DNA of 64,000 nucleotides, taken from positions 2,678,001-2,742,000 of the forward strand of contig NZ_CP141048.1 of NCBI RefSeq assembly GCF_034627025.1, in the 5' to 3' direction. The position numbers were made by a program, and so were the translations under genes. Shown here piece by piece: positions 16,781 to 36,327 of the stretch. Below the pieces are notes generated by a model, which had not been told where the DNA came from, searched no databases, and was given only the letters and a program-made list of their open reading frames with translations. How positions within the stretch are numbered: the stretch's first letter is position 1; every line of letters starts with the position of its first letter. This DNA comes from Microvirga lotononidis (GTDB taxonomy: Bacteria; Pseudomonadota; Alphaproteobacteria; Rhizobiales; Beijerinckiaceae).

Positions 16781-16884
16781 AGAGCATCGGACGTGCAATC
16801 GAACGCACGTCCGATGCTCTCACTTTCGGGTTTGACGCATCTTTCCACACAAAACCGGTTCCCACTTTTGCGTTCGATGCTCTA
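16781..16884. repeat. Dispersed intergenic repeat, copy B, with 16-bp perfect inverted repeat
   Basis: AGAGCATCGGACGTGC (16781-16796) pairs exactly with 16805-16820 across an eight-base loop. A second part (16821-16882) repeats copy A near 1901, with a core at 16851-16880. The motif AGAGCATCG occurs three times: once forward and twice inverted (ending at 16820 and 16882). The distal end overlaps the stop codon of the LacI gene (TAG on the minus strand at 16882-16884), so the element reaches into the gene's last codon. Confidence 0.8.
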
Positions 16885-17892
16885 GCGGACGATAAGCGTG
16901 TGCGGGAGAAGCTGCTCGGAGGGGTATTCACCGGCCCACAGGGATTGCAACTGATCCAGGACCTTGGCGCCGAAATCGGCATAGGGGATGTGGACCGAGG
17001 TCAGCCAGGGGGCGATCCAGGCATTGAGCTTGTTGTCGTCGACGCCGACGACCCTGCAATCTTCAGGGATGCGGACCTTGGTTTCCAGAGCGAGACGGTA
17101 AGCGCCATAGGCCATGAGATCGCTCGGACAGAACAATCCCTGGGGCCAGGAGTGTCCGTTCACGAGCCTCTGAGCGGCAGCGTAGCCAACCTCCAGATGC
17201 GACAGCCCGGGCGCCTCGGCTTGCCGGACGGCTTCATCGGACAGGCCAAGCTCCTCAAGGCGTGTGATGAATCCTCCCACGCGATCGCGCGTCGCCGATG
17301 ATCCCTGGGTTGGGTAGATGACCCCGAATTCCTCGATCCCGCGTGCCCAAAGATGGTCGGCCGCATCCCGCCCGGCGCGGCGGTTGTCGATGCCCACGAA
17401 GGCTCCCCCTCCGTCGGGGTTTCGGCGTCCGACGAACACGATGGGGTCGCCGCGGCTCACGGAGGCCGACAGTGCCTCGCTGCGTACCGGGTTGACGACG
17501 ATATAGCCCTGAACGACCTGCGACCGCATCACGTGCAGATATTCATCCTGAAGATCGGCACGATCATGCGTGTCGCACAGGATCATGACGTAGCCCGCCG
17601 AGCGGAGAGCCGTCTCGACCGAGGCCGCGATGGCGGCCATGGCCGGGTTGTCGAGGTTGGGAGAAAGCATGGCGACGACGCGGCTTTCCCGCCTGCGCAA
17701 CGTCCGGCCTACATGGTTCGGCCGATAGCCGAGCGCTGCCACGATCTTTTGAACCCGCTCGACGGTCTCGGCAGAGGCTCGACGGGTTTCGCCGTTCACA
17801 ATGCGTGATACAGTAGCAACGGAGACCCCGGCTTGAGCCGCTACCGTCGCCAGTGAAACAGGTTCTTGGCCGATGAGCTTCTGCTTGTTCAT
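16882..17892 (-). CDS. LacI-family transcriptional regulator of the sulfoquinovose operon
   Basis: A 336-residue repressor. The helix-turn-helix is VSLATVAAQAGVSVATVSRI near residues 12-31, with the hinge helix YRPNHVGRTLRRRES. A periplasmic-binding-protein-like sensor domain follows (VVAMLSPNLDNPAMAAI, VVGVDDNKLNAWIAPWLTSV). The start at 17892 has an AAGGTGG ribosome site; the frame is open 43 codons further upstream but that part is unlike the family. It is divergent from the transport and catabolic operon starting at 18224, with a palindromic operator between them, so it most likely represses that operon until an inducer (a sulfoquinovose derivative) binds. Confidence 0.88.
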   Translation of the reverse strand: MNKQKLIGQEPVSLATVAAQAGVSVATVSRIVNGETRRASAETVERVQKIVAALGYRPNHVGRTLRRRESRVVAMLSPNLDNPAMAAIAASVETALRSAGYVMILCDTHDRADLQDEYLHVMRSQVVQGYIVVNPVRSEALSASVSRGDPIVFVGRRNPDGGGAFVGIDNRRAGRDAADHLWARGIEEFGVIYPTQGSSATRDRVGGFITRLEELGLSDEAVRQAEAPGLSHLEVGYAAAQRLVNGHSWPQGLFCPSDLMAYGAYRLALETKVRIPEDCRVVGVDDNKLNAWIAPWLTSVHIPYADFGAKVLDQLQSLWAGEYPSEQLLPHTLIVR

Positions 17893-17980
17893 GCCACCTT
17901 GTTCACCACATTCGCGGGTCCTGTCGAGAGCTCCGATGCACTCACCAGGATGCTTATACCAAAGAATGATAGACAGTTTA

Positions 17981-17994
17981 GGCAAACGTTTGCC
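17981..17994. promoter_or_regulatory. LacI-type operator palindrome
   Basis: GGCAAACGTTTGCC is a perfect 14-base palindrome with the central CG typical of LacI-family sites. It lies 89 bases upstream of the LacI start and 230 bases upstream of the binding-protein gene, in the divergent promoter region. It probably controls both directions. No second copy was seen in the gap. Confidence 0.75.
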
Positions 17995-18223
17995 AAAGTC
18001 CAAGTGCAGGATGGGCATCATGGCGGATGTGCCGCCCGCAAGCAGTCACTGATTGATGCATGGGTAGAGCGGAATCTCGCCCAACCCTGGCTTCAGCGAA
18101 CTTCTCCGCTGGAGGGATGACGTCGACTACCAGAGAAGGGGTTCAATGAGATCTGATGCCCCTGTGGCGCCACAGATCCGAGCAAATCTGGACGTTCGAT
18201 AAGAATACATAAGGGAGGAAACC

Positions 18224-19504
18224 ATGAAGGGTACAACGATGCTCCTGGGCTGCGCCTTATTCGCAGCAAGCCTTGGGGTCGGCCATGCTCAAGCACAAAC
18301 AACGCTGCGGATGACCTGGTACTCGGACGGGAACGAGGGGGAGGTCATGTCCGATCTTCTTCGCCGATTCGAGGAGCAGAACAAGGGCATCAAGGTCGTT
18401 CTTGATCAGGTCCCGTTCAAAGCCATCAACGAGAACCTCCCTGTCCAGCTCGCGGCAGGGCAGGGGCCGGATCTTGCGCGCGTCGCGGATCTCGGAGGCG
18501 TTGCCCGTTACATGCTCGATCTGCGTCCTCATCTGAAGGATGCAGCCTATTTCGAGACCAATTTCGGCCCCTTCCTCGAATGGATGCGGGTCCCGGGCGA
18601 CACGAGCTCGATTCCGGGCTTCATGACCCAGCTCACCCTGACGGGCCCCTTCGTGAACAAGACCTTGTTCGAGCAGGCCAATGTTCCCATGCCCGGTCCG
18701 AAGGCGACCTGGGAGGAATGGGCGAAAGCCGCGAAGGATGTCGCGGCCAAGGTGCAGGCGCCATTTCCGATCGCCATCGATCGGTCCGGACATCGGTTCT
18801 TCAGCCTTGCCATCACGCAGGGCGCGAAGGTGTTCAACGACAAGGGCGAGCCCGCCGTCGTCGATGAAGGATTCAAGAAGGGCGCGCAGCTCGTTTTCGA
18901 CTGGCACAAGAATGGCGTGATGTCGAAGGAGCTCTGGGGCTCGGTCGCCGGCACGGCCTACCGCGGTGCCAATGACGAGTTCAAGAACGCCCAGGTCGTG
19001 ATGTACGAGTCCGGCTCCTGGCAGATCGGGCAATTCGACAAGACGATCGGCGACGCCTTCGACTGGGTGGCGGTTCCGACGCCCTGCGGGCCCGCCAACT
19101 GCTCCGGCATGCCCGGTGGCGCCGCGCTCGTGGCCATCAAGACGACGCAGCATCCTCAGGAGGTCGCGCGCCTCATGGAGTTCCTCGCCAGCGAGCCGAT
19201 CGCAGCGGAGTTCTATGAACGCTCCCTCTTCGTGCCGGGACACCTGGGCATTGCCAAGAAGGGCCTCGAGTACAAGAGCGCCACGCCGCAGGGCAAGGCC
19301 GCGTTGAAGGTCTTCAACGAAGGCGTCTCTCAGCTCTCGCCGGTCGCAACCAAGCTTCAGGGCTATGTCCACAACCGCGTGATCTTCAATGCGGTGATCA
19401 GCCGTCTCGGCCAGGCCATCGCCGGCGAGTCCACGCTCGACGAGGCCTACCAGCGCATCGAGTCGGATGTGCAGCAGCAGATTGCTGAGCGTACCAGGAA
19501 GTAA
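18224..19504 (+). CDS. Sugar ABC importer binding protein (sulfoquinovose operon)
   Basis: A 426-residue periplasmic protein of the family-1 carbohydrate binding proteins. A signal peptide (MKGTTMLLGCALFAASLGVG, cleavage near AQA-Q) precedes the mature LRMTWYSDGNEGEVMSDLLRRFEE. An internal pair of cysteines (PCGPANCSG, about residues 287-293) may form a disulfide. A GGGAGG ribosome site precedes the ATG. As first gene of the operon and partner of the two permeases and ATPase that follow, it should bind sulfoquinovose or its glyceryl glycoside; the substrate is inferred from the sulfoquinovosidase in the same operon, not from binding-site residues. Confidence 0.88.
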   Translation: MKGTTMLLGCALFAASLGVGHAQAQTTLRMTWYSDGNEGEVMSDLLRRFEEQNKGIKVVLDQVPFKAINENLPVQLAAGQGPDLARVADLGGVARYMLDLRPHLKDAAYFETNFGPFLEWMRVPGDTSSIPGFMTQLTLTGPFVNKTLFEQANVPMPGPKATWEEWAKAAKDVAAKVQAPFPIAIDRSGHRFFSLAITQGAKVFNDKGEPAVVDEGFKKGAQLVFDWHKNGVMSKELWGSVAGTAYRGANDEFKNAQVVMYESGSWQIGQFDKTIGDAFDWVAVPTPCGPANCSGMPGGAALVAIKTTQHPQEVARLMEFLASEPIAAEFYERSLFVPGHLGIAKKGLEYKSATPQGKAALKVFNEGVSQLSPVATKLQGYVHNRVIFNAVISRLGQAIAGESTLDEAYQRIESDVQQQIAERTRK

Positions 19505-19515
19505 AGCCTGCAACC

Positions 19516-19541
19516 TGCTCCGGGCGACTGCGCCCGGAGCA
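19516..19541 (+). other. Perfect intercistronic hairpin between binding-protein and permease genes
   Basis: TGCTCCGGGCG, an ACTG loop, and the exact complement make an 11-bp stem in the 60-base gap after the binding-protein stop. It has no following T-run. It is positioned as a 3' stabiliser or partial attenuator for the first cistron. Confidence 0.85.
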
Positions 19542-19564
19542 TTCCCGCTCTGGCTGAGGACACC

Positions 19565-20602
19565 ATGACCCTCACGTCGAAGACCTCTCCGGCGACATCG
19601 CCGGCTCCGGCAGCAAGCCTCGCGCCATCGGGCGGAACGAACCCCGTCCTGAAACTGGTCACCCGGGTTCTCGACTGGCCGATGGCGGGTCTGCAGCGCC
19701 TCATCGGCGAGCGGCGGATGCCCTATGTCTTCCTTCTGCCGAACCTCGTGTTCTTCGGCCTCTTCGTGTTCGTGCCGATCGCTATCAACTTCGTCTATTC
19801 GGTCACCGGCGGTCCGGCCCTGTTTCCGTCCGAGCGTCCCTATGTCGGTGCCGGCCAGTATTCGTATCTGTTCGATTGCGGGTCCTACGTGGATCCGAAC
19901 ACCTGCCGCGAGGACCATTTCTGGCGCGGCGTCTACAACACGCTCTTCTTCTCCTTCTTCCAGGTCGTCGCAATGGTAGGGCTGTCGCTCCTGACGGCCG
20001 TCGTGCTCAACATGAAGATCCGCGGCCGCGGCTTCTTCCGCGCGGTCTATTTCTTCCCCGTGCTGCTGTCTCCCGTCGTGGTGGCGTTGATCTGGAAGTG
20101 GATCCTGCAGCGGGACGGCCTTTTGAACGCCGCCATCATGGGCCTGGGCGGCGACAGGACGCTCTTTCTGGCGGAGCCCGGCTGGGCGATGTTCTGGGTC
20201 ATCTTCGTATCGGTCTGGGCTCATATGGGGTTCTACACCCTCATTCTGCTGGCGGGGCTCCAGGCCATTCCGACGGATATCTACGAGGCGGCCGAGATGG
20301 ACGCGACGCCCCGGTGGCGCGTGTTCTGGCGCCTTACCCTGCCGCTGCTCTGGCCCAACCTCATCGTCGTGATCGTCCTGTCCCTGATCCGCGCCGTGCA
20401 GACCTTCGACGAGGTCTTCGTGCTCACCGGAGGCGGACCGGGAACATCCACCCTCATGGTCGTGCAGTACATCTACGAGACGGCATTCTCGAACCAGGTT
20501 CAGAATTTCGGTCTCGCGGCGGCGGCATCCGTTGTCCTCGGCATCGTGCTCTTCGCCCTGACACTGGCGCAGCTCGCCTTCACGCAACGCAAGTCCTCGT
20601 GA
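19565..20602 (+). CDS. Sugar ABC importer permease 1
   Basis: A 345-residue inner-membrane permease of the MalF/UgpA type with six predicted helices preceded by a cytoplasmic tail of about 45 residues rich in Ser, Pro and Ala. A periplasmic loop after the first helix contains FDCGSYVDPNTCREDHFW with two cysteines. The EAA coupling loop is DIYEAAEMDATPRWRVFW followed by RLTLPLLWPN. The downstream permease starts seven bases after its stop, so the two form the heterodimeric channel. Confidence 0.9.
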   Translation: MTLTSKTSPATSPAPAASLAPSGGTNPVLKLVTRVLDWPMAGLQRLIGERRMPYVFLLPNLVFFGLFVFVPIAINFVYSVTGGPALFPSERPYVGAGQYSYLFDCGSYVDPNTCREDHFWRGVYNTLFFSFFQVVAMVGLSLLTAVVLNMKIRGRGFFRAVYFFPVLLSPVVVALIWKWILQRDGLLNAAIMGLGGDRTLFLAEPGWAMFWVIFVSVWAHMGFYTLILLAGLQAIPTDIYEAAEMDATPRWRVFWRLTLPLLWPNLIVVIVLSLIRAVQTFDEVFVLTGGGPGTSTLMVVQYIYETAFSNQVQNFGLAAAASVVLGIVLFALTLAQLAFTQRKSS

Positions 20603-20609
20603 GGCCGTT

Positions 20610-21659
20610 ATGAACATCGCTCATCTCGTCTCCGCCCGCCGCAATCCCAAGGGATGGCACTGGACCGACATCGCCGCCTACGCGTACCTGCTGCTCGGCG
20701 TGGTCCTGATGTTCGGGCCCGTGTTGTGGCTGGTCCTGTCGTCGTTCAAGACGCAGGCGAGCCTTCTGGAGTTTCCTCCCTCCCTTCTGCCCCTGTCGCA
20801 GAAGGAGGTTGTCGTGACAGGCTATCCGCAGCCGCTGCCTTTGTTTACGGTGACGATGGAGGACGGGACCAAGCGCGAGCTCGCGCAAGTTCGGCGGATC
20901 GGCATCCAGGCGCAGATGATTGATCCGGCCAATCCAAGTCAGCAATTCAGGGTCCCCATCGACAAACGCACCCCCGTCCGCCAATTCTCCCTGGCGACGG
21001 AGAATTATTCGGAGCCGCTGCAACGGTTCGCTTTTCCGCGGTTTCTCGCCAATTCGGTTTTCGTGACCGTGGTCGCGACCCTGATCACGCTTCTGATCAA
21101 CTCCATGGCGGCCTATGCTCTTTCGATCTATGAGTTCAAGGGCAAGAACGCCGCCATGCTCATGGTGATCGGAACGCTCATGATCCCGATCACCATCATC
21201 TTGGTGCCGGTCTATCTCGTCGTGACCAAGCTCGGGCTCGTCAATTCGCTCTGGGCCGTGATCCTGCCGGGCGCGGCGACGCCGACGGGCGTGTTCCTCC
21301 TGCGTCAATATATGCTGACCTTGCCGCGCGATCTCATCGAAGCGGCCCGCATGGACAAGGCATCAGAGTGGCAGATCTACTGGCGGATCGTGATGCCCCT
21401 GACCCTACCGGCACTTGCGGTCCTGACGATCTTCTCGATCATGTGGCGTTGGAACGAGTTCCTGTGGCCGCTCGCCGTGCTGACGAAGACGGAATCCTAC
21501 ACGCTGCAGATCGGCCTCAATGCCTTCCAGGGCGAATTGCAGACCCAGTGGCAGTATCTCCTGGCGATGACCGTGATGACCCTGACCCCAGTCGCTCTCG
21601 TCTTCGTGTTCCTGCAACGCTTCATCACCACCGGTATCGCCAATACCGGGATGAAATAA
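20610..21659 (+). CDS. Sugar ABC importer permease 2 with enlarged periplasmic loop
   Basis: A 349-residue MalG/UgpE-type permease. It is about 70 residues longer than usual: between helix 1 and helix 2 (about residues 60-135) it carries a polar, beta-rich insert containing VTMEDGTKRELAQVRRIG and PANPSQQFRVPIDKR. The coupling loop DLIEAARMDKASEWQIYWR is normal. The insert faces the periplasm and could contact the binding protein. It is followed 16 bases later by the ATPase gene. Confidence 0.9.
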   Translation: MNIAHLVSARRNPKGWHWTDIAAYAYLLLGVVLMFGPVLWLVLSSFKTQASLLEFPPSLLPLSQKEVVVTGYPQPLPLFTVTMEDGTKRELAQVRRIGIQAQMIDPANPSQQFRVPIDKRTPVRQFSLATENYSEPLQRFAFPRFLANSVFVTVVATLITLLINSMAAYALSIYEFKGKNAAMLMVIGTLMIPITIILVPVYLVVTKLGLVNSLWAVILPGAATPTGVFLLRQYMLTLPRDLIEAARMDKASEWQIYWRIVMPLTLPALAVLTIFSIMWRWNEFLWPLAVLTKTESYTLQIGLNAFQGELQTQWQYLLAMTVMTLTPVALVFVFLQRFITTGIANTGMK

Positions 21660-21675
21660 CCGGACTGGATGAATC

Positions 21676-22752
21676 ATGGCAGAGCTGCAACTCACCGACA
21701 TCAAGAAATCCTACGGCGCCACTACGATCATTCATGGCATCGATCTTGCTATCGACGACGGCGAGTTCGTGGTGTTCGTCGGTCCGTCCGGCTGCGGAAA
21801 GTCCACGCTTCTGCGCATCATCGCCGGGCTGGAGACGGTCAGCGGCGGTGATATCCGGATCGACGGGAAGAGCGTGACGAACGTGCCGGCCTCAGACCGC
21901 GGACTGGCGATGGTGTTCCAGTCCTATGCGCTCTATCCGCATATGAGCGTTTACAAGAACATGGCCTTCGCTCTCGAGAACATGGGCCTCGGCCAGCCTG
22001 AAATCGATCAGCGCGTCCGCCGCGCGGCTCAAATGCTCCGGCTGACCGATTACCTCGACCGCAAGCCAAAGGCTCTCTCGGGGGGGCAGCGCCAGCGCGT
22101 TGCGATCGGACGCGCCATCGTGCGCGATCCCAAGATCTTCCTGTTCGACGAGCCACTGTCGAATCTCGACGCGGAGCTGCGTGTCGCGACGCGCAAGGAG
22201 CTCGCCGCCCTGCACGGGGAGATCGGTGGCACCATGATCTACGTCACGCACGATCAGGTCGAGGCCATGACTCTGGCCGATCGCATCGTGGTGCTGCATT
22301 CGGGGCGTATCGAGCAGATCGGCACGCCGCTCGAAGTCTACAATCATCCGGCCAACCTTTTCGTGGCAGGTTTTATCGGCTCGCCCCGCATGAACCTGCT
22401 CCCGGGCCGCGTGGCGGCGTCGGGTCAAGTCGTGATAGGGGCCGACGCGCGGACAATTTCCGTGCCTTCGACCGGGCATGCGTCCGCGGGGGACAGCGTC
22501 ACGCTGGGTGCACGTCCCGAACATATCGATGTCGTAGACGAAACCGAGGCGGATCTCGCCATCACGATCGACTTGGTGGAGCAGCTCGGTGGCGAGACAT
22601 ACCTGTATGGGTCTGGTCCTGGCCTGCCGCAGATCACTGTGCGCCAGAATGGTCAGGCCACATACGACCGGAGCCACAGGATCGGGCTGCGGCTCAAGCG
22701 CGATGCGCTTCACCTGTTCGACGCAGACGGAAACGCGATCCGGATTCGCTGA
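21676..22752 (+). CDS. Sugar ABC importer ATPase (MalK/UgpC type)
   Basis: A 358-residue ATPase. Walker A is GPSGCGKSTLLRI, the Q-loop MVFQSYALYPHMSV, the signature LSGGQRQRVAIGRAI, Walker B IFLFDEPLSNLDAEL and the switch MIYVTHDQVEAMTLADR. The C-terminal 120 residues form the OB/TOBE regulatory domain (LGARPEHIDVV). In this family one ATPase may serve several sugar importers. It lies 24 bases before the GH31 gene within the same operon. Confidence 0.92.
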   Translation: MAELQLTDIKKSYGATTIIHGIDLAIDDGEFVVFVGPSGCGKSTLLRIIAGLETVSGGDIRIDGKSVTNVPASDRGLAMVFQSYALYPHMSVYKNMAFALENMGLGQPEIDQRVRRAAQMLRLTDYLDRKPKALSGGQRQRVAIGRAIVRDPKIFLFDEPLSNLDAELRVATRKELAALHGEIGGTMIYVTHDQVEAMTLADRIVVLHSGRIEQIGTPLEVYNHPANLFVAGFIGSPRMNLLPGRVAASGQVVIGADARTISVPSTGHASAGDSVTLGARPEHIDVVDETEADLAITIDLVEQLGGETYLYGSGPGLPQITVRQNGQATYDRSHRIGLRLKRDALHLFDADGNAIRIR

Positions 22753-22775
22753 TATTCCTGAGGAGACCTTTTTCG

Positions 22776-25154
22776 ATGAAAGCATTGACTGAGGGCCGCT
22801 ATAGCGGCCGCGACGGAATCTGGGCCGTGTTCGAATTGGGCTGGAACACGCAGATGCGCATCGGGATTCTCGAGCATGACATCGGACGGGTCATCCTGAA
22901 GCGTGACGGCGGCCATCGTCTCGATCGGGGCTGGAGCATCGCGCCCAACGGGGGCGAGCCGTCGTACGAAGGCAGAGCAAGGGATTCCGTGGAGGGGTTT
23001 GCCTGCCCGGAAGCATCCGTCACGGAACAGGACGGTACCGTGGTGCTTGCCGCTAAAGGCCTGACGGCTATCGTCACCTTGTCTCCCTTCGGAATTGCCT
23101 GGCACCGGACCGGCGAGAATCGTCCCTTCCTGCAGGATCGTCGGACGCAGGCTTATTTCGTGTCGCGCAAGACCGGCGCGCTTCAGCACGTCATGGCGCG
23201 CGATGATCAGGAGCGCCATTACGGCCTGGGCGACAAGGCGGGGCCTCTCGATCATACGGGCCGCCGCTTCAAAATCGACGCCGTCGACCCCTGCGGGTTC
23301 GATGCGGAGCTCAGCGACCCGCTCTACAAGATGATCCCGTTCCTCATGGTCGACGGGCCAACGGGCGCTCACGGCATCTTCTACGACAATCTCGCCGTCG
23401 GCGAGATGGACCTCGGCTGCACGATCGACAACTATCACGGGCCGTTCCGGTCCTACAGCGCGCAGGACGGCGACCTCGACTTCTATGTGATGGCGGGCCC
23501 CAGCGTGCCGGATGTGGTGCGGCGGTTCTCCTGGCTCACGGGCGGTCAGGCCTTCGCACCGAAATGGTCTCTCGGCTTCGCCACCACGTCGATGACCATC
23601 GCGGATGCGCCCGACGCCGATGCGAGGATCACCGACTACATCGAGAAGTGCCGCCATCATCAGATCCCCTGCGACAGCTTCCATTTCGGCTCGGGCTATA
23701 CCTCCATCGGCCATCGCCGCTATGCCTTCAATTGGAACCGCGACAAGTTTCCCGATCCGGCAGGCACCATGCGCCGGCTGAAGGAAGCCGGCATGCAGCC
23801 GGTCACCAATCTCAAGCCTTGCCTCCTGGACGATCATCCTCGGCTGAACGAGGCGATGGAGCAGGGGATCCTCGTCAAGGACGGCGCGACGGAGCAGCCG
23901 GCCGTGGCTCAGTTCTGGGACGGCCTGGGCTTCCACGTCGACTTCACCAATCCCAATGGCCGCACCTGGTGGCGGAACGGCATTCAATCCGCCCTCCTGG
24001 ATTATGGTGTCGTCACGATCTGGAACGACAACAACGAATACGAGATCTGGGACGAGGATGCAGTGTGCAACGGCGACGGGCGCCCGTTCCCGCAGGTTTT
24101 GGCGCGGGCCGCGCAGCCGCTTCTCATGACGAAGCTGTCCTACGAGGCGCAGGCGGCCCATACGCCAGGAAAGCGACCCTATGCCATCACGCGCGGGGGA
24201 GCGGCGGGCCTGTGGCGCTATGCGCAGACATGGTCCGGCGACAACGAGACCGCCTGGAAGACTCTTCGGTTCAATCTGACTCAAGGGCTCAACATGAGCC
24301 TGTCCGGCATGTTCAACATCGGGCATGACGTGGGCGGGTTCCACGGGCCCAGCCCGAATGCTGAGCTGTTCTGCCGCTTCGTCGAGTTCTGCGCGCTCTG
24401 GCCACGCATGGTCATGAATTCCTGGAAGGACGACGGCATCGTCAACCTTCCCTGGATGCACGAGAGCGTCATTCCGCAGGTTCGGGACGTGATCAAGCTG
24501 CGCTATCGGCTGATGCCCTATCTCTACACCCAGATGTGGCGTGCCTCACGCGAGAACGAGCCGGTCGTGCGCCCGCTGTTCTACTCCTTCCCTGAAGATC
24601 GTTCGGCTCTCGATGTGCAGGACAGCTTCATGATGGGACCGGATATTCTGGTAGCGCCCGTTCTCGAGGAGGGGGCCCAGGACCGACAGGTTTATCTGCC
24701 GGAACATGCGGGCGGCTGGTTCGACTTCCACGACGGCCGCCACTTCGAGGGCGGGCAGATCATTACGGTCCAGGCTCCTCTCGGGCGCCTGCCTGTTTTC
24801 GTGCGCTGTGGCGCCATCATCCCTGTGACGCGGCAGATCGACGGGATCAAACCGAGCACCGATACGCAGCGCGAGTTGATCGTCTTCGGGGCTCCGCAGG
24901 ACGTCACCCACGCGGATCTCTATGAGGATGATGGCGATACATCGGACTGGCAGGGTAAAGGCCGGTTGGAGCTTCGCTTCCAGCTCCAGAGAAGCGGTCG
25001 GGATTTCGTGATGTCTCTCGACACGAGCGGTGCCTACCGGCCAGCTTTCGACACGGTCTCGATTCATCCTGTCGGCATCGAAGGGCAGATCCGGATTGAA
25101 ACGCCGGCGGGATCCATCAAAGTCGTGCAGGGTAAACCGGCCTTTCAGGACTGA
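22776..25154 (+). CDS. GH31 family alpha-glycosidase, substrate unknown
   Basis: A 792-residue cytoplasmic glycoside hydrolase family 31 enzyme without signal peptide. An N-terminal beta-sandwich (about residues 1-230) precedes the (beta/alpha)8 barrel. The nucleophile is D418 in TIWNDNNEYEIW and the acid/base D489 in WSGDNETAW; HYGLGDKAGPLDHTGRRF and GCDIGG-like GHDVGGFHGPS are also present. C-terminal beta domains follow. It does not show the R-x-x-W sulfonate-binding motif of the other GH31 in this operon, so it probably acts on a different alpha-glycoside. A GAGGAGACC ribosome site lies just before the ATG. Confidence 0.88.
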   Translation: MKALTEGRYSGRDGIWAVFELGWNTQMRIGILEHDIGRVILKRDGGHRLDRGWSIAPNGGEPSYEGRARDSVEGFACPEASVTEQDGTVVLAAKGLTAIVTLSPFGIAWHRTGENRPFLQDRRTQAYFVSRKTGALQHVMARDDQERHYGLGDKAGPLDHTGRRFKIDAVDPCGFDAELSDPLYKMIPFLMVDGPTGAHGIFYDNLAVGEMDLGCTIDNYHGPFRSYSAQDGDLDFYVMAGPSVPDVVRRFSWLTGGQAFAPKWSLGFATTSMTIADAPDADARITDYIEKCRHHQIPCDSFHFGSGYTSIGHRRYAFNWNRDKFPDPAGTMRRLKEAGMQPVTNLKPCLLDDHPRLNEAMEQGILVKDGATEQPAVAQFWDGLGFHVDFTNPNGRTWWRNGIQSALLDYGVVTIWNDNNEYEIWDEDAVCNGDGRPFPQVLARAAQPLLMTKLSYEAQAAHTPGKRPYAITRGGAAGLWRYAQTWSGDNETAWKTLRFNLTQGLNMSLSGMFNIGHDVGGFHGPSPNAELFCRFVEFCALWPRMVMNSWKDDGIVNLPWMHESVIPQVRDVIKLRYRLMPYLYTQMWRASRENEPVVRPLFYSFPEDRSALDVQDSFMMGPDILVAPVLEEGAQDRQVYLPEHAGGWFDFHDGRHFEGGQIITVQAPLGRLPVFVRCGAIIPVTRQIDGIKPSTDTQRELIVFGAPQDVTHADLYEDDGDTSDWQGKGRLELRFQLQRSGRDFVMSLDTSGAYRPAFDTVSIHPVGIEGQIRIETPAGSIKVVQGKPAFQD

Positions 25155-25199
25155 GAGCGGGTCCTATCGGCTACCGAGCGACGAGAAAGGACATTACCC

Positions 25200-25253
25200 A
25201 TGAGACAGGCTTGGCGACGGTTCGATCCTGACGATCCGATCTGTTCGAAATGA
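25200..25253 (+). CDS. 17-codon ORF coupled to the dehydratase, resembling the start of mannonate dehydratase
   Basis: The ORF reads MRQAWRRFDPDDPICSK and stops at an ATGA overlap with the dehydratase start at 25250. A GAGAAAGGA ribosome site precedes it. The pattern MxQxWRxFxPxDP matches the first residues of UxuA-type mannonate dehydratases, but nothing else of that gene follows. It may be a fossil of a displaced gene that now serves to feed ribosomes into the dehydratase gene, which has no good ribosome site of its own. Confidence 0.4.
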   Translation: MRQAWRRFDPDDPICSK

Positions 25254-26983
25254 CACGCCGATCCATCGGAGAGTTGCGGAGCCAGCGCTGGTTCGCCTCG
25301 GACGACATGCGCGGCTTCGCGCATCGCCAGCGCACGCAGCAGATGGGCCTGCGGCGGGAAGAGTTCCTCGGCAAGCCCGTCGTGGCCATCATCAATACTT
25401 GGAGTGACCTGAGCCCGTGTCATTCGCATCTACGTGACCGCGCCGAGGCCGTGAAGCGCGGTGTCTGGCAGGTGGGCGGCTACCCGGTGGAGCTGCCGGC
25501 GCTCTCGGTCGGCGAGGTGATGGTGAAGCCTACCACCATGCTCTACCGCAACTTTCTCGCCATGGAAGTGGAGGAGCTCCTGCGCTCGCATCCCATCGAC
25601 GGGGCCGTTCTGCTGGGTGGTTGCGACAAGTCCACGCCCGGGCTTCTCATGGGAGCGATCAGCATGGACATCCCGGTCATCTATTGCCCGGCGGGTCCGA
25701 TGTCCAACGGGCAGTGGCGCGGCCAGAAGACCGGCGCGGGAACTCACACCAAGAAGTATTGGGACGAACTCCGGGCCGGCAACATCACGCAAGACGACTG
25801 GGTCGATCTGGAAAGCCGGATGACCCGCTCCATCGGTACCTGTAACACCATGGGAACGGCTTCCACCATGACGTCCATCGTGGACGCCATGGGTCTCACG
25901 CTTCCCGGCGCGTCCTCGATCCCGGCCGCCGACAGCGGTCATCCGCGCATGGCTTCCCTCTGCGGCGAGCGCATCATCGAGATGATCTGGGAGGACTGGA
26001 AACCGTCGCGGTTTCTCGACGCGAGGAGCTTCCGCAACGGGCTCGTTACATACATGGCGCTGGGCGGCTCCACCAACGCCGCCGTGCACCTGATCGCGAT
26101 GGCGCGCCGGGCCGGCGTCGACCTGACCCTCGACGACATGTCCGACATGGCCGGGAGGGTTCCGGTTTGCGCCAATCTCTTCCCGTCCGGCGCATACTTG
26201 ATGGAGGATTTCTATTTCGCCGGCGGATTGCTCGCGCTGCTCAGGAAGCTGGAGAGCCATCTCGACCGGGAGGCCATGACGGTGAACGGCAGGACGCTCG
26301 GTGAGAACATCGCCGGGGCCGAGTGCTGGAACGACGATGTCATTCGCGGCGAGGACAATCCCGTCGTCCCGCTCTCGCGCGGCAAGACGCTGGCGCTCCT
26401 GCGGGGCAACCTCGCCCCGAACGGCGCCGTCATGAAGTCCTCGGCGGCGAATCCGAAATTCCTCAAACATGTCGGGCCGGCCCTCGTTTTCGACAGCCCC
26501 GCTGAGATGAACAAGGCGATCGACGATCCGGATCTCGACATCACGGAAGACACGGTTCTCGTGCTGCGCAATGCCGGCCCCGTCGGGGCGCCGGGCATGC
26601 CGGAATGGGGCAATCTGCCGATCCCGAAGAAGCTTCTTCGCCAAGGAGTGCGTGACATGGTGCGCATCTGCGATGGGCGCATGAGCGGCACCCATTACGG
26701 CACCTGCATCCTGCACGTTGCCCCGGAGGCGGCCGTGGGCGGCCCTCTGGGATTGCTCAGAACGGGCGACCTCGTCGAGCTCGACGTCGCAGCCGGTCGC
26801 CTCGACATGAAGGTCGATGGGGACGAGTTGGAGCGCCGCCGTGCTGAATGGAAGCCGACCGCGCACGTCTATGGCCGGTCCTTCGCGGCCCTCTACCAGC
26901 GCCATGTCTCGCAGGCCGACCAGGGCTGCGACTTCGATTTCCTCAGCGCGCCCGGCCCGGTGGTCGAGCCGTCCATCTTCTAG
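25250..26983 (+). CDS. IlvD/Edd-family dehydratase, probable sulfogluconate dehydratase
   Basis: A 577-residue iron-sulfur dehydratase of the dihydroxy-acid/sugar-acid branch. The cluster and Mg2+ motifs are SDLSPCHSHL, LLGGCDKSTPGLLMGA and SIGTCNTMGTASTM; near the C-terminus is VRICDGRMSGTHYGTC. The length and sequence style fit the sugar-acid dehydratases (L-arabonate, D-xylonate type) rather than IlvD of valine synthesis. In the sulfo-Entner-Doudoroff route this class converts 6-deoxy-6-sulfogluconate to 2-keto-3,6-dideoxy-6-sulfogluconate. The role is inferred from the sulfoquinovosidase and KDG-type aldolase in the same operon. Confidence 0.85.
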   Translation: MTRRSIGELRSQRWFASDDMRGFAHRQRTQQMGLRREEFLGKPVVAIINTWSDLSPCHSHLRDRAEAVKRGVWQVGGYPVELPALSVGEVMVKPTTMLYRNFLAMEVEELLRSHPIDGAVLLGGCDKSTPGLLMGAISMDIPVIYCPAGPMSNGQWRGQKTGAGTHTKKYWDELRAGNITQDDWVDLESRMTRSIGTCNTMGTASTMTSIVDAMGLTLPGASSIPAADSGHPRMASLCGERIIEMIWEDWKPSRFLDARSFRNGLVTYMALGGSTNAAVHLIAMARRAGVDLTLDDMSDMAGRVPVCANLFPSGAYLMEDFYFAGGLLALLRKLESHLDREAMTVNGRTLGENIAGAECWNDDVIRGEDNPVVPLSRGKTLALLRGNLAPNGAVMKSSAANPKFLKHVGPALVFDSPAEMNKAIDDPDLDITEDTVLVLRNAGPVGAPGMPEWGNLPIPKKLLRQGVRDMVRICDGRMSGTHYGTCILHVAPEAAVGGPLGLLRTGDLVELDVAAGRLDMKVDGDELERRRAEWKPTAHVYGRSFAALYQRHVSQADQGCDFDFLSAPGPVVEPSIF

Positions 26984-26992
26984 GGACCCGCC

Positions 26993-27799
26993 ATGATCGA
27001 CATTGAGAACCGCTTCAAGGGCTGGCTGAAGGGCGAGGGGCCACGCCCGCCGCTGGGCACTTGGCTCATGGCGGCGGCTCCCGCAAGCGCCGAGGCGATG
27101 GGCTACAGCGGCTTCGACTTCCTCGTCGTCGACATGGAGCATGTGCCGATCGAAGTGTCGGATCTCGCCCATATCCTGCGCGCCATCGGCTGCACGCCCG
27201 CCGATGCGGTGGTACGCCTCGCCTGGAACGACCAAGTGCTCGTGAAGCGCGTGCTCGATGCCGGGGCTCAGACGATCATGCTCCCGTTCGTTCAGACCGC
27301 CGAGGAGGCCCTGCAAGCGGTCTCGTTTGCGAAGTATCCCCCGGAGGGCGTTCGCGGCGTCGCCGCAGTGCATCGCGGGTCGCGGTTCGGCCGCGCCGTG
27401 GATTATCTCAAGCGTGCCAACGATCAGGTGGCTGTGATCGTCCAGCTGGAGACGCCGGAGGCCGTCGATCGGCTGCCGGACATCGCGGCCGTTCCTGGCA
27501 TCGACGCTCTGTTCGTCGGGCCTGGCGATCTCGCGGCTACCCTGGGCCATATCGGCAATATCGCGCATCCCGAAGTTCAGGCGCTGATCGAGAAGGCTGC
27601 CAAGATGGCCCGTGCTGCGGGCAAGCCCGTTGGCATCGTTGGCCCCAACCCTGACATGGTGCGCCGCTTCATCGATTATGGCTACAGCTACGTCGCTGTG
27701 GCGTCCGACATCGCTATGATGACGAGCCGCGCCTCCGAGTGGCTGGGCGCCCTGCGCGATCAACCTGCACCTTCGGATGCTCCGACCGCAGCCTATTGA
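26993..27799 (+). CDS. HpcH/HpaI-family class II aldolase, probable KDSG aldolase
   Basis: A 268-residue metal-dependent pyruvate aldolase. The catalytic histidine is in FLVVDMEHVPIE, the pyruvate-binding arginine in AVVRLAWND, and the metal ligands in VQLETPEAV and FVGPGDLAATLG. The family splits 2-keto-3-deoxy acids into pyruvate and an aldehyde. Here the expected substrate is 2-keto-3,6-dideoxy-6-sulfogluconate, giving pyruvate and 3-sulfolactaldehyde; that assignment rests on context. The ATG is ten bases after the dehydratase stop behind AGGGACC. Confidence 0.87.
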   Translation: MIDIENRFKGWLKGEGPRPPLGTWLMAAAPASAEAMGYSGFDFLVVDMEHVPIEVSDLAHILRAIGCTPADAVVRLAWNDQVLVKRVLDAGAQTIMLPFVQTAEEALQAVSFAKYPPEGVRGVAAVHRGSRFGRAVDYLKRANDQVAVIVQLETPEAVDRLPDIAAVPGIDALFVGPGDLAATLGHIGNIAHPEVQALIEKAAKMARAAGKPVGIVGPNPDMVRRFIDYGYSYVAVASDIAMMTSRASEWLGALRDQPAPSDAPTAAY

Positions 27800-27817
27800 G
27801 ATTGAATTTAAGTCCCC

Positions 27818-28588
27818 ATGGCAATGGCATCCGATTATACAACCGTCCAGTACCATTCTCTCCAGGGCCGCTCCGTCGTCATCACGGGTGGTGCGTCGGG
27901 GATTGGCGAGGAGATGGTGAAAGCCTTCGTGTCGCAAGGTGCACGCGTATCGTTCATCGACATTGCGAAGGAACCGGGAGGGGCGCTGGCAAGTGCAACG
28001 GGCGCGACCTTCCAGGCGTGCGATGTCACCGACATCCCGGCGCTCCGCGAGGCGCTGGCCAGGATCGAAGGCGATCACGGCGGCATCGATGTTCTCGTCA
28101 ACAATGCGGGCAAGGACGATCGGCACGATATGGCCGAGATCGAACCCGATTACTGGCGCCAGGCGCTTGCGCTCAATCTCGATCATCAGTTCTTCGCCAC
28201 GCAGGCGGTCTCGAAAGGGATGGCGGCGCGAGGTTCCGGCTCCATCATCATGCTGGGGTCCATCTCGTGGATGCGGGGCCGTCCCGGCATGGTCGGGTAC
28301 ACGACTGCGAAGGCTGCGATCAATGGCATGACCCGGACCCTCGCCCGCGAGCTCGGGCCGTCCAACATCCGGGTCAACTGCATCGTCCCGGGTGCCATCC
28401 TCACGGAGCGCCAGAGACAGCTCTGGCTGACGCCCGAACTGAACCAGCAATTTCTCGATCTCCAGGCTTTGAAGTTCCGGCTCGACGGCAGCCATGTGGC
28501 GAAGATGGCTCTGTTCCTGGCCTCCGACGAGAGCATCGGCTGCACGGGGGCGAACTTCATCGTCGACGCAGGCCTGACCCAGAACTGA
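27818..28588 (+). CDS. SDR-family dehydrogenase, probable sulfoquinovose 1-dehydrogenase
   Basis: A 256-residue classical short-chain dehydrogenase. The nucleotide motif is TGGASGIGEEM (about residues 23-33), with D64-type CDVTD, NNAG, the catalytic serine in MLGSISW, and YTTAK. FIDIAKEP after beta-2 carries an aspartate that favours NAD over NADP. In the sulfo-ED route an SDR of this size oxidises sulfoquinovose at C1 to the lactone. The alternative is a general aldose dehydrogenase; only the operon context decides. Confidence 0.85.
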   Translation: MAMASDYTTVQYHSLQGRSVVITGGASGIGEEMVKAFVSQGARVSFIDIAKEPGGALASATGATFQACDVTDIPALREALARIEGDHGGIDVLVNNAGKDDRHDMAEIEPDYWRQALALNLDHQFFATQAVSKGMAARGSGSIIMLGSISWMRGRPGMVGYTTAKAAINGMTRTLARELGPSNIRVNCIVPGAILTERQRQLWLTPELNQQFLDLQALKFRLDGSHVAKMALFLASDESIGCTGANFIVDAGLTQN

Positions 28589-28597
28589 GAGTGTCCC

Positions 28598-30601
28598 ATG
28601 CAGATTCTGACGACCGACGGCGGCTTCGATATCGTTCTCGATGGAAGGCTGATCCTGCGACATCGCATCGATGCGCCGTGTCTTTTCGTGGGGCACGGCG
28701 ATGCACGGATGGACATGTATCGCGGCAACTTCGACATCGAGGACTATGTCGTCGAACGTACGCCGCTCGCCCATGCGGTCGTCGTCGGATCCGAGATCGG
28801 TTTCTCTGCGGCCTCGGGGCAGAAGACCCGTTTGAGCCTTCAGGTCTCGGGCGACGATCAGAACGGCGCCATCGCCTTCCGTTCGGAGGATGGTGCTCTC
28901 AACCGGATCTGGATCCGCATCGCGACGGAACAGGGCGAGCATGTCTGGGGCGGCGGCGAGCAGATGTCGTACTTCGACATGCGTGGTCGCCGCTTTCCTC
29001 TTTGGACATCGGAGCCAGGGGTCGGCCGCGACAAGACCATGGAAATCACCTTCAAGGCCGATGTTTCCGGCAAGTCGGGAGGCGACTACTGGAACACCAA
29101 TTATCCGCAGCCGACCTATCTCTCGTCCCGACGCTATGCGCTGCATGTCGAGACGACAGCCTACTCGGCCTTCGACTTCCGCCGAGGGGACTTCCACGAG
29201 ATCGAAGTTTGGGCCATCCCGGAGCGGATCGAATTCACGGCGCGGCCTTCCTTCGTATCGCTCGTCGAAGCCATGTCCGAGCGCTTCGGCCGCCAACCGC
29301 CGCTTCCGGAATGGGTCTATAACGGTGCGATCATCGGCCTGAAAGATGGCGCCCGCTCCTTCGAGCGGCTCGAGGCTATCGTTGCCGCCGGAGCGAAGGT
29401 ATCCGGCCTCTGGTGCGAGGACTGGATCGGCTTGCGCCACACTACATTCGGGGCGCGTCTATTCTGGGACTGGAAGGCGAACGATGACCGCTATCCTAAT
29501 CTGCGCGGGCGGATTGCGGAGCTGGAGGAGCGCGACATCCGTTTCCTGGGCTACGTGAACCCCTATCTCGCCGTCGACGGCTCACTGTTCCCGGAAGCAG
29601 AGGCTGCGGGCTACTTCGCCAAAGATGAAAACGGAAAGACGGCACTCGTGGATTTCGGCGAGTTCGATTGCGGGGTGGTCGACTTCACCAATTCGGATGC
29701 GGCCGCCTGGTTCGCCGAGCGGGTGATCGGGAAGAACATGCTCGATTTCGGGCTCTCCGGATGGATGGCCGATTTCGGAGAGTACCTGCCGATCGACGTG
29801 AAGCTATCCAATGGCATCGACGCGAAGCTGATGCACAATGCGTGGCCGACGCTCTGGGCCGAGGTGAATGCGCGTGCGGTCGCCAGCCGTGGCAAGACCG
29901 GCGAGGCTCTCTTTTTCATGCGTGCCGGCTTCACGGGCGTTCAGAAGCATTGCCCGCTCTTGTGGGGCGGGGACCAGTCGGTCGACTTCACACGACACGA
30001 CGGCCTTGTGACGGTGATCTCGGGAGCGCTTTCGTCGGGGCTTCTCGGCAATGCCTATCACCATTCGGATATCGGCGGCTACACGAGCCTCTTCGGCAAT
30101 GTGCGCACGGCGGAGCTCATCATGCGTTGGGCCGAGATGGGCGCGTTCACGCCGGTCATGCGCACCCACGAAGGCAATCGTCCGCGCGACAACCTGCAGA
30201 TCGACGAGGACCCTCAGGTCCTCGCACATTTCGCCAGGATGACGAGAGTTTACGTCCATCTCTCGCCTTACCTGAAATCGCTCGTGGCGGAGGCCTCGAC
30301 GCGAGGCCTGCCGGTACAGCGTCCGCTGTTCCTCCATTTCGAGCAGGATCCCCGAACCTACGCCATCCAGGACGCCTATCTCTACGGTTCCGACCTTCTC
30401 GTGGCGCCTGTGTGGCAAGCGGGGAAATCGGAGTGGAGCCTCTATCTTCCGGAAGGGGCGGAATGGGTCCATGTTTGGTCCGACAGGACGTTCAGGGGAG
30501 GGCAGGACGTCACGGTACCTGCGCCCTTCGGCGAGCCGCCGGTCTTCCATCGGACCGTGTCGGAGTTCGCGGAGCTTTTTGCAGGATTGCGAACTCTCTG
30601 A
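28598..30601 (+). CDS. yihQ: Sulfoquinovosidase (GH31, KERWY type)
   Basis: A 667-residue GH31 enzyme strongly resembling E. coli YihQ along its length (GEQMSYFDMRGRRFPLWTSE, GWMADFGEYLP, FFMRAG, HHSDIGGYT, FTPVMRTHEGNRP). The nucleophile is D392 and the acid/base D459, 67 residues apart as in YihQ (405 and 472). The sulfonate-recognising residues are all present: K249, E274, R287, W290 and Y495, i.e. the KERWY pattern of the Agrobacterium-type sulfoquinovosidases instead of the QQRWY pattern of YihQ. It releases sulfoquinovose from sulfoquinovosyl glycerol or the plant and cyanobacterial sulfolipid head group, in the cytoplasm since no signal peptide is visible. Confidence 0.93.
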   Translation: MQILTTDGGFDIVLDGRLILRHRIDAPCLFVGHGDARMDMYRGNFDIEDYVVERTPLAHAVVVGSEIGFSAASGQKTRLSLQVSGDDQNGAIAFRSEDGALNRIWIRIATEQGEHVWGGGEQMSYFDMRGRRFPLWTSEPGVGRDKTMEITFKADVSGKSGGDYWNTNYPQPTYLSSRRYALHVETTAYSAFDFRRGDFHEIEVWAIPERIEFTARPSFVSLVEAMSERFGRQPPLPEWVYNGAIIGLKDGARSFERLEAIVAAGAKVSGLWCEDWIGLRHTTFGARLFWDWKANDDRYPNLRGRIAELEERDIRFLGYVNPYLAVDGSLFPEAEAAGYFAKDENGKTALVDFGEFDCGVVDFTNSDAAAWFAERVIGKNMLDFGLSGWMADFGEYLPIDVKLSNGIDAKLMHNAWPTLWAEVNARAVASRGKTGEALFFMRAGFTGVQKHCPLLWGGDQSVDFTRHDGLVTVISGALSSGLLGNAYHHSDIGGYTSLFGNVRTAELIMRWAEMGAFTPVMRTHEGNRPRDNLQIDEDPQVLAHFARMTRVYVHLSPYLKSLVAEASTRGLPVQRPLFLHFEQDPRTYAIQDAYLYGSDLLVAPVWQAGKSEWSLYLPEGAEWVHVWSDRTFRGGQDVTVPAPFGEPPVFHRTVSEFAELFAGLRTL

Positions 30602-31135: not shown

Positions 31136-32194
31136 TTGGGTGTTCGCAGGCTGGCGCAGGAGCTTCGCATCTCCGTGACCACCGTGTCGCGCGCCCTCAA
31201 CGATTATCCCGATATCGCTCCTGATACGCGTCGCCGGGTGTTGGAGGCCGCGGAGCGCATCGGATATTCGCCCAATGCCGTGGCCCGCTCCCTGCGGCAG
31301 GGCCGAGCGAATGCCGTAGGCATCGTTCTTCCGACCCCTGAGGGCAATTTCAGCGACCCGTTCCTGAGTGCGCTGCTCGCCGGAATCTCAAATCGCCTGC
31401 GTTGCGACGGTCTGGATCTCATCGTGACGTCCTGTCCTCCAGGGCCGGACGAAGAGCCGAGCTATAAGCGGCTCTTCGCAGGACGAAAGGTGGATTCAGT
31501 CATCGTCACACGCACCCGCGTTGACGATGATCGCATCCGTCTTCTCTTGGCCGAGAATTTTCCTTTCGTCGCCTTCGGCCGGTCCGATGCCATAGCCGAT
31601 CCTTTTCCGTGGGTCGATCTCGACGGCCATGCTGCCTTCTTCTCGATGACCCGGCGATTGATCGAGGCCGGGCACCGACGCATTGGCCTGATTCACACAG
31701 GACGCAACCTGAACTTCGTGCGCCACCGCACCGCCGGCTGGCGGGATTGTCTGGTCGCCGAGGGGATTCCCGCGGAGCTTTGCGGAAAATGGATGGCAGA
31801 GGCTGCGCCAGATGCGGAAGGCGGGCGGAGGGCAGCCTTTTCTCTCCTGTCCCAATCCGACGCTCCGACGGCTTTGGTCTGCATCAGCGATGATATTGCC
31901 TTTGGAGCAATCGAGGCCTGTCGCGAGCTATCTCTTCCAGTCGGCGACGGCGGCATCAGTATCGTCGGCTTCGACGATAATCCCTATGCACGCTTCGCAA
32001 GTCCTCCGCTGACCTCACAGCGCCAGCCGGTTCGGGACATCGGGTGCACTCTGGTCGACATGCTTCAGCGCCGTTCGACCGGCGCACCGGCTTCACAGCT
32101 GAACTGTCTCATGCAGGCGGAGTTCGTAACGCGATCCTCCCACGGCCGTCCGCCGTGTCAGGCCACCTCGGGCAGAAGCGGCTTGAGGCAGTGA
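31136..32194 (+). CDS. LacI-family regulator of the second sugar operon
   Basis: A 352-residue repressor with a TTG start preceded by GGGAGGGACAC. The helix-turn-helix begins at once (GVRRLAQELRISVTTVSRAL), with the hinge YSPNAVARSLRQGRA, so no longer start is needed. The sensor domain follows (AVGIVLPTPEGNFSDPFLS; GISIVGFDDNPYARFASPPLT). It is transcribed with the importer and hydrolase downstream. The effector is probably the imported glycoside or its sugar. Confidence 0.88.
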   Translation: MGVRRLAQELRISVTTVSRALNDYPDIAPDTRRRVLEAAERIGYSPNAVARSLRQGRANAVGIVLPTPEGNFSDPFLSALLAGISNRLRCDGLDLIVTSCPPGPDEEPSYKRLFAGRKVDSVIVTRTRVDDDRIRLLLAENFPFVAFGRSDAIADPFPWVDLDGHAAFFSMTRRLIEAGHRRIGLIHTGRNLNFVRHRTAGWRDCLVAEGIPAELCGKWMAEAAPDAEGGRRAAFSLLSQSDAPTALVCISDDIAFGAIEACRELSLPVGDGGISIVGFDDNPYARFASPPLTSQRQPVRDIGCTLVDMLQRRSTGAPASQLNCLMQAEFVTRSSHGRPPCQATSGRSGLRQ

Positions 32195-32250
32195 TGACTA
32201 CAAAATCAACAACGAAAAGCAAATCAGAGAGAATTCCTAGGAGGGGCGGC

Positions 32251-33525: not shown

Positions 33526-33541
33526 TGTCGCTGAGCGACCG

Positions 33542-33563
33542 AGGGCGGCCTTGTCGCCGCCCT
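33542..33563 (+). other. Perfect intercistronic hairpin between binding-protein and permease genes
   Basis: AGGGCGGC, a six-base loop, and GCCGCCCT lie 16 bases after the binding-protein stop and 45 before the permease start. There is no T-run. The position is the same as in the other three importer operons of this window. Confidence 0.8.
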
Positions 33564-33607
33564 AGGCCTTAAGCCTTCTCTCAGACCTCCGCTCCGAGGC
33601 TCCGCCT

Positions 33608-35259: not shown

Positions 35260-35268
35260 GAGTTCGTA

Positions 35269-36309: not shown

Positions 36310-36327
36310 ACGAATAAAGGACATGAC

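Follow-up and report, generated by a model that had tools for sequence, protein, structure and literature searches.

Organization of the locus

The stretch of DNA analysed here, referred to throughout as the window, consists of 64,000 nucleotides (positions 2678001-2742000 of contig C1) from the 7.3 Mb genome of the soil bacterium Microvirga lotononidis. Our subject is the gene cluster at its positions 16882-30601, in which four genes that we assign to the sulfoglycolytic Entner-Doudoroff (sulfo-ED) degradation of sulfoquinovose (SQ), a sulfonated sugar found in plant sulfolipid, stand behind a repressor, an ATP-binding cassette (ABC) importer and a first family 31 glycoside hydrolase (GH31a). 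The genes named in an earlier note on this DNA are all there as intact open reading frames (ORFs), and Pfam and NCBIfam scans give the expected families: a LacI repressor on the minus strand, whose ORF runs over 16882-18021, and then, across 18224-30601 of the plus strand with intergenic gaps of 7-95 bases, nine genes for a solute-binding protein (SBP), two BPD permeases, an ABC ATPase, a GH31 enzyme, an IlvD/Edd dehydratase, an HpcH/HpaI aldolase, a short-chain dehydrogenase/reductase (SDR) and a second GH31 enzyme. The features of the cluster are as follows.

16882-17892, minus strand: LacI-family repressor of the GH31a module (Pfam LacI and Peripla_BP_3; start checked, 336-residue M. ossetica ortholog)
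17981-17994, no strand: likely LacI operator, the perfect palindrome GGCAAACGTTTGCC, a single exact copy in the genome
18224-19504, plus strand: solute-binding protein of a CUT1-type ABC importer (Pfam SBP_bac_8/1; 24% identity to the rhizobial sulfo-operon SBP)
19565-20602, plus strand: ABC permease 1 (Pfam BPD_transp_1)
20610-21659, plus strand: ABC permease 2 (Pfam BPD_transp_1)
21676-22752, plus strand: ABC ATPase of the UgpC/MalK type (NF008653, 484.7 bits against a cut-off of 432)
22776-25154, plus strand: GH31a, predicted cytoplasmic alpha-glucuronidase (Pfam GH31; uxa/uxu context; putative Asp of the -1 subsite replaced)
25200-25238, plus strand: uxuA relic, first 13 codons, MRQAWRRFDPDDP (11 of 13 codons match locus L046; compared with the intact uxuA N-termini of L046, L048 and L125)
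25250-26983, plus strand: IlvD/Edd dehydratase, predicted sulfogluconate dehydratase (PF00920; PRK13016, 931.8 bits; 84% identity to the Rhizobium WSM4643 dehydratase)
26993-27799, plus strand: HpcH/HpaI aldolase, predicted 2-keto-3-deoxy-6-sulfogluconate (KDSG) aldolase (PF03328; 76% identity to the Rhizobium WSM4643 operon aldolase)
27800-27817, plus strand: scar of an excised SMP-30/SGL lactonase gene, with its ..TTTAAG end retained (compared with L045 and L048)
27818-28588, plus strand: SDR, predicted SQ 1-dehydrogenase (top solved relative PpSQDH, 9gwu; SQ-binding residues kept)
28598-30601, plus strand: predicted GH31 sulfoquinovosidase (SQase) of the KERWY type (top solved relative 5ohy, yihQ, 1167 bits)

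The sulfo-ED gene set

The last gene of the cluster had been read in the earlier note as an SQase on account of the residues K249, E274, R287, W290 and Y495, and this reading is upheld. The five residues, which form the SQase sulfonate-recognition set KERWY, occur at exactly those numbers and align with the same letters in the SQases of Rhizobium, Shinella, M. ossetica and M. brassicacearum. The NCBIfam model PRK10426, which is labelled alpha-glucosidase and which we take to be the YihQ model, is matched with 958 bits (cut-off 553). In a sequence comparison with the Protein Data Bank (PDB), the protein is nearest to characterised SQases among solved GH31 relatives, its six best relatives scoring from 1167 (5ohy) to 753 bits and the next one 170; of the six, four carry the name yihQ or sulfoquinovosidase, and 8r56 and 6pnr that of GH31 or alpha-glucosidase only. 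On the combined basis of 5ohy, PRK10426 and KERWY we predict the 28598 protein to be a KERWY-type sulfoquinovosidase.

The SDR has as its closest PDB relative the SQ 1-dehydrogenase of Pseudomonas putida, PpSQDH (9gwu; 304.8 bits vs 227.2 for the next). The SQ contacts given for PpSQDH in the available part of its description are Asp99, Arg101, Ser147, Arg152, Arg154, Tyr160, Lys164 and Gln198 (PMC12133307). When these numbers are transferred with a 13-residue chain offset, all of the contacts are found to be kept in the window SDR, in the motifs DDRH (Asp99, Arg101), SISWMRGRP (Ser147, Arg152, Arg154), YTTAK (Tyr160, Lys164) and TERQ (Gln198); both sulfonate arginines are missing from 7wwx, the next-best solved SDR. 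The dehydratase and the aldolase belong to PF00920 and PF03328, the families expected of a sulfogluconate dehydratase and a KDSG aldolase of the sulfo-ED pathway, and identities to the plasmid operon of Rhizobium WSM4643 are 84% for IlvD, 76% for HpaI, 77% for the SDR and 72% for the SQase. The PpSQDH pocket, the rhizobial synteny and these identities bear out the earlier proposal that IlvD, HpaI and SDR are a sulfo-ED core, and the predicted assignment of IlvD, HpaI, SDR and SQase to this known pathway holds. As a separate observation, two 12.3 kb Acinetobacter plasmids (NZ_CP127897.1 and NZ_CP127912.1; H63 and H64) encode an SDR that shares about 50% identity with the SQ dehydrogenase.

It might be argued that IlvD, HpaI and SDR act on a sugar acid without a sulfonate group (L-arabinonate or D-xylonate) by the Dahms route, with the SQase being incidental. 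The dehydratase is named L-arabinonate dehydratase by NCBI and scores 931.8 bits with the model of that name, PRK13016 (cut-off 882), and the best NCBIfam model for the SDR is D-xylose 1-dehydrogenase, with a score below cut-off. We find this alternative scarcely credible, because the SDR has the two sulfonate arginines that the next-best SDR lacks, and because the same four genes occur in rhizobia together with a lactonase, TauE and a succinate-semialdehyde-type dehydrogenase, where the sulfo-ED dehydratases bear the same araD name. For the last four genes, both an L-arabinonate/D-xylonate route and an ordinary alpha-glucoside operon are contradicted by KERWY, the SQ dehydrogenase pocket and the rhizobial synteny.

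Loss of the lactonase gene

Among 48 Microvirga genomes an SQase is present in 27, in a total of 28 loci, all of which were mapped; the copy on the M. ossetica plasmid (L125) was read from the public record. A lactonase gene occurs in 27 of the 28 loci, the window being the sole locus without it, and at the HpaI-SDR junction of the window 18 bases fuse the end of HpaI to the final bases of the lost gene, as can be seen by comparison with L045 and L048. TauE follows the SQase in 24 of the 28 loci, and an aldose-epimerase gene is found in 10. In the window genome the TauE ortholog (80% identity) is unlinked, at C1 near 3993150, and so is the ortholog of sulfolactaldehyde (SLA) dehydrogenase (C1:818294-819673; 81% identity to the Rhizobium operon gene). 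The top PDB relative of the latter is 8c54, presumably RlGabD, with 884.5 bits, and 3jz4 scores 672.1; both are labelled succinate-semialdehyde dehydrogenase.

Since the window locus is without lactonase, TauE and uxuA relative to its kin, it could be regarded as a decaying remnant, in which the pathway ceased with the loss of the lactonase and the remaining genes are on their way out. We consider this improbable. There are no internal stops in the sulfo genes of the window, and omega, obtained from simple Nei-Gojobori counts with 11 partner loci for each gene (eight of type B and three of the 19 of type A, as defined below), is 0.039-0.117 for the window pairs of the four sulfo genes, inside the range of the other pairs (0.025-0.139); moreover, the TauE and SLA dehydrogenase orthologs are present elsewhere in the genome. 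By these counts the sulfo genes of the window remain under purifying selection. With the lactonase lost and selection persisting, the lactone step would have to be spontaneous or served by a paralog. Near 318 kb of a second contig (L001, G000:C2) a lactonase gene adjoins that of an SDR with 47% identity to the SQ dehydrogenase; this pair probably belongs to another sugar oxidation pathway, a role as stand-in lactonase being possible.

Two types of SQase locus and the exchange of importer

A scan of GTDB species for GH31a yielded at least 585 loci, of which the best 80 are considered here. The eight most identical named relatives are all from Microvirga (75-92%). Of the 56 loci L045-L100, 49 have LacI, SBP, the two permeases, the ATPase and GH31a in one group, and in the remaining seven there is no LacI hit or a contig end interrupts. 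In Bosea, Bradyrhizobium and Azospirillum the module occurs with no sulfo genes beside it, and high-identity IlvD, HpaI, SDR and SQase lie within the fetched 10 kb in five of the 80 loci, all from Microvirga (L045, L046, L048, L050 and L054). Judged by this distribution, LacI, the ABC importer and GH31a are a separate conserved module. The single sulfo-ED operon with LacI and importer that the earlier note described thus stands as far as the last four genes are concerned, and finds no support in that form for LacI, the importer and the first GH31. LacI and the importer differ from the regulator and importer of the rhizobial sulfo-ED type; the operon SBP is 24% identical to the rhizobial sulfo-operon SBP.

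Two types can be recognized among the 28 SQase loci of Microvirga. Type A, with 19 loci, has a rhizobial-type LacI and importer; in type B, with nine loci including the window, the sulfo genes come directly after GH31a or GH31a-uxuA, and no rhizobial-type importer is present in the mapped stretch of these nine. Both types occur in M. ossetica, and in G154, G163 and G172 the GH31a and sulfo modules are apart in the genome. In G181, G158, G151 and M. ossetica the decayed C-terminal end of a type A permease can still be read ahead of IlvD (for example, VPVAVLIVILQEHVVSGLTSGSIKG vs VPVAVLIVIFQERVVSGLTSGGIKG), with shorter traces in G185 and perhaps G167. The permease fossil in four type B loci shows that these loci arose when a type A operon was placed behind GH31a and lost its importer. 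The window has no permease trace left; it does retain the start of uxuA (13 codons), a gene that follows GH31a in several Microvirga. In a quick tree of the four joined proteins (32 rows) the type label needs at least three changes by the starred branches, the fewest being five, and the junctions of G157 and G170 differ from those of the other type B loci; on these two grounds one single fusion for type B was rejected. The label changes would mean that the fusion was repeated, or moved by recombination.

The window genome yielded nothing close to the binding protein of the rhizobial SQ operon (best 33% identity), which leaves the ABC importer of the operon as the only linked candidate for SQ glycosides. 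From this linkage, import of SQ or SQ-glycerol by the operon system is possible, even likely. The SQase is present in 12 of the 13 Microvirga genomes that bear GH31a vs 15 of the 35 that do not (Fisher p 0.003, kinship ignored). The glycerol kinase gene glpK occurs in two type A and three type B loci; as it is found in both types it bears only on SQ-glycerol, and we no longer count it as evidence that GH31a has a glycerol aglycone. On the M. ossetica plasmid (L125, 20971-28317) the fused operon extends into glpK, glpD, a fructuronate-reductase-like gene, a glyceraldehyde-3-phosphate dehydrogenase gene and a drug/metabolite transporter (DMT) gene.

Predicted function of GH31a

GH31a has the Pfam domains of GH31, the regions of the nucleophile and of the acid/base, and a WNDNNEYE motif; among solved structures, alpha-glucosidases and an alpha-glycosidase are nearest to it. 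Twenty-two GH31a proteins were chosen for alignment, three of which had no clustered ORF; in 19 of the 19 aligned, Gly or Ser stands where alpha-glucosidases have the Asp of their LDIE/ADID region. This Asp may correspond to the -1 Asp of CtGII, given as Asp443 in the available text of PMC9061262.

Genes uxaC, uxuA or uxuB lie in the fetched flank of 13 of the 80 GH31a loci vs none of 23 type A loci (Fisher p 0.04, kinship ignored). These 13 loci are from four Microvirga, Salinarimonas and eight Alpha- and Gammaproteobacteria (43-49% identity). All eight of the latter have a tripartite ATP-independent periplasmic (TRAP) transporter together with UxaC and UxuA; UxuB is present in seven of them and a GH2 enzyme in six. 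The best models were beta-glucuronidase for three GH2 proteins and fructuronate reductase for two UxuB proteins scanned, in each case below cut-off. Three enterobacterial relatives that were scanned have a major facilitator superfamily (MFS) transporter nearest to the D-galactonate family, an acid-sugar type, again below cut-off. In M. ossetica, uxaC is found upstream and uxuB downstream, and in the window genome uxaC (91% to M. ossetica), uxuB (79%) and a distant uxuA (49%) stand together at C1 3966-3976 kb. A second UxuA-family frame (337 residues, weak match) is located at G000:C2:364767-365570.

Those of its relatives that lie beside uxaC, uxuB, uxuA, TRAP and beta-glucuronidase-like GH2 genes lead us to predict that GH31a is an alpha-glucuronidase and that the importer may be shared by anionic alpha-glycosides. 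Alpha-glucuronidase is absent from the list of characterised GH31 activities in the available part of PMC9061262 (2022). Among the matches listed for GH31 alpha-glucuronidase, degradation of glucuronosyl diacylglycerol (GlcADG) and glucuronosyl-glycerol, no such enzyme is reported in the accessible portions of PMC4491172, PMC9061262, PMC10755693 and PMC9460063. A search for literature on sulfoquinovose in Microvirga found none.

The glycerol head groups of sulfoquinovosyl diacylglycerol (SQDG) and GlcADG would be alpha-linked hexosides, negative at C6, a likeness that would explain a single importer. GlcADG accumulates in phosphate-starved plants. Both lipids are made in plants by SQD2, according to the available text of PMC9460063. 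We suggest tentatively, and with more doubt than belief, that GH31a founds a clade of cytoplasmic alpha-glucuronidases and that the operon serves alpha-sulfoquinovosyl-glycerol and alpha-glucuronosyl-glycerol by means of one importer, two GH31 enzymes and the sulfo-ED and Uxa/Uxu routes. If this were true, shared import would have left its trace in the recurrent fusion and in the disappearance of a dedicated SQ importer. GH31a could equally well act on alpha-glucuronosyl residues from xylan, gums or sphingolipids.

The repressor, its operator and the neighbouring genes

The LacI ORF is some 43 codons overlong, and an in-frame ATG at 17892, which fits the 336-residue annotation in M. ossetica, is the likely start. 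With this start the palindrome GGCAAACGTTTGCC (17981-17994) falls between lacI and the importer genes. Exact copies of it occur in 47 of the 56 GH31a loci L045-L100 vs none of the 24 loci L101-L124, and in all eight other type B loci vs none of the 23 type A sulfo loci, so that the palindrome is likely to be the operator of the window LacI. A wider regulon was considered: no second exact copy was found anywhere in the window genome, and genome-wide matches with at most two mismatches equal the control (36 vs 38, both strands), so that no LacI regulon can be claimed. Sites with one mismatch are present at G000:C1:256910 and 424751, within two-mismatch totals that equal the control.

A second operon follows directly after the cluster, at 31136-38486, and encodes a LacI protein, an SBP with two permeases and an ATPase, a glycosidase of the MGH1 type (resembling mannosylglycerate hydrolase) and an EamA transporter. 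Further on (42344-45145) the window encodes a 933-residue protein with nine stretches of RTX calcium-binding repeats, in DNA of lower GC content (about 0.57).

Proposed mechanism

We think it probable that the cluster is a composite operon, that is, a working sulfo-ED set behind a separate LacI/ABC/GH31a module with an ancestral alpha-glucuronoside role, whose importer would serve both anionic alpha-hexosides. As read from the genes, and this applies to every reaction, to the substrates of GH31a and of the importer, to export and to induction alike, the SQase would free SQ from an imported alpha-sulfoquinovoside, and the SDR would oxidize SQ to sulfogluconolactone, which would open spontaneously or through a paralogous lactonase. 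IlvD would then make KDSG, which HpaI would split into pyruvate and sulfolactaldehyde; the SLA dehydrogenase (C1:818294) would convert the latter to sulfolactate, and TauE (C1:3993150) would probably export it. The sulfo set has been severed from its own LacI and ABC importer and is now found behind the present LacI/ABC/GH31a module. The ancestral substrate of that module would most likely be an alpha-glucuronoside, cut by GH31a and routed to UxaC, UxuB and UxuA, and the importer is expected to carry both anionic alpha-hexosides.

Several observations weigh against this reading. In the tree, type B is not one clade, and the history of the fusion is accordingly not simple. No close lactonase copy was found elsewhere in the window genome, four of five SGL-family matches being at most 40% identical and the fifth giving no hit, and relocation of the lactonase within the genome was dismissed for this reason. 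No sulfo gene is adjacent to the SLA dehydrogenase candidate in its 4.4 kb locus, so that it could be a general succinate-semialdehyde dehydrogenase. No uxa/uxu gene is present in the fetched flank of 47 of the 48 loci L052-L100 outside Microvirga (56-73% identity; several flanks end at a contig end), which makes the glucuronate link indirect for the nearest clade, nor in the fetched flank of 16 of the 24 distant loci (43-49%). DctM-like TRAP hits occur in 13 of the 80 GH31a loci, five of which have no uxa/uxu gene, and in one of the 23 type A loci; TRAP alone is unspecific.

The same scarcity of uxa/uxu genes outside Microvirga, the alpha-glucosidases and alpha-glycosidase that are the best solved relatives of GH31a, and the separate modules of G154, G163 and G172 would also suit a plain juxtaposition, in which GH31a is an ordinary alpha-glucosidase or alpha-xylosidase with a glucoside importer, the sulfo genes are there by chance and SQ enters through some unlinked transporter. 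We regard this as unlikely, although it is the most plausible of the alternatives. It is opposed by uxuA after GH31a in several Microvirga and its relic in the window, by the eight distant relatives beside glucuronate genes and TRAP and the three enterobacterial ones with an acid-sugar-type MFS transporter, by the replaced Asp, putatively of the -1 subsite, in 19 of 19 GH31a proteins, by a gene tree in which type B arose repeatedly or was moved by recombination, and by the lack of a close relative of the rhizobial SQ-binding protein in the genome.

New in the composite operon are the exchange of importer, which has left fossils, the disappearance of the lactonase while selection continued, and the candidate clade of GH31 alpha-glucuronidases. 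Sulfo-ED operons can shed importer, regulator and lactonase and yet stay under selection, so that gene-cluster rules that demand these three will miss or misread such loci; NCBI names such as alpha-glucosidase and L-arabinonate dehydratase also mask the pathway. With GH31a there is a testable candidate for an alpha-glucuronidase within family GH31, and such a route might allow bacteria associated with plants to make use of glucuronosyl glycolipids alongside sulfolipids.

Comparison with known systems

Li is said to have described a sulfo-ED operon in Rhizobium leguminosarum SRDI565 in 2020. In the rhizobial plasmid relatives that we compared (L126-L129) the order of genes, given here for WSM4643, is LacI, ABC, IlvD, HpaI, lactonase, SDR, SQase, TauE and the succinate-semialdehyde-type dehydrogenase, and Shinella and Ensifer are alike. 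The window shares with this R. leguminosarum-type operon the order IlvD-HpaI-SDR-SQase, at 72-84% identity to WSM4643, and its genome has an SLA dehydrogenase ortholog; it differs in having the GH31a module instead of a LacI and ABC importer of its own, in the missing lactonase, and in that TauE and the SLA dehydrogenase are unlinked. With the sulfo-ED pathway of P. putida SQ1, as far as it is described in the available part of PMC12133307, the window has in common the sulfonate pocket of the SQ dehydrogenase, the difference being that the window operon has no lactonase gene. The sulfofucose ED pathway of Paracoccus wurundjeri, in the accessible text of PMC12421959, is alike in its ED logic and in the SDR and HpaI families; its dehydratase belongs to PF13378/PF02746, whereas that of the window belongs to PF00920. 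The 28598 protein agrees with the GH31 sulfoquinovosidases of YihQ type in KERWY and shows no notable difference from them. GH31a, unlike these enzymes, has A276, D300, R314, F318 and F522 at the five KERWY places; with characterised GH31 enzymes it shares the Pfam domains, and it is set apart from them by WNDNNEYE and by Gly or Ser in place of Asp.

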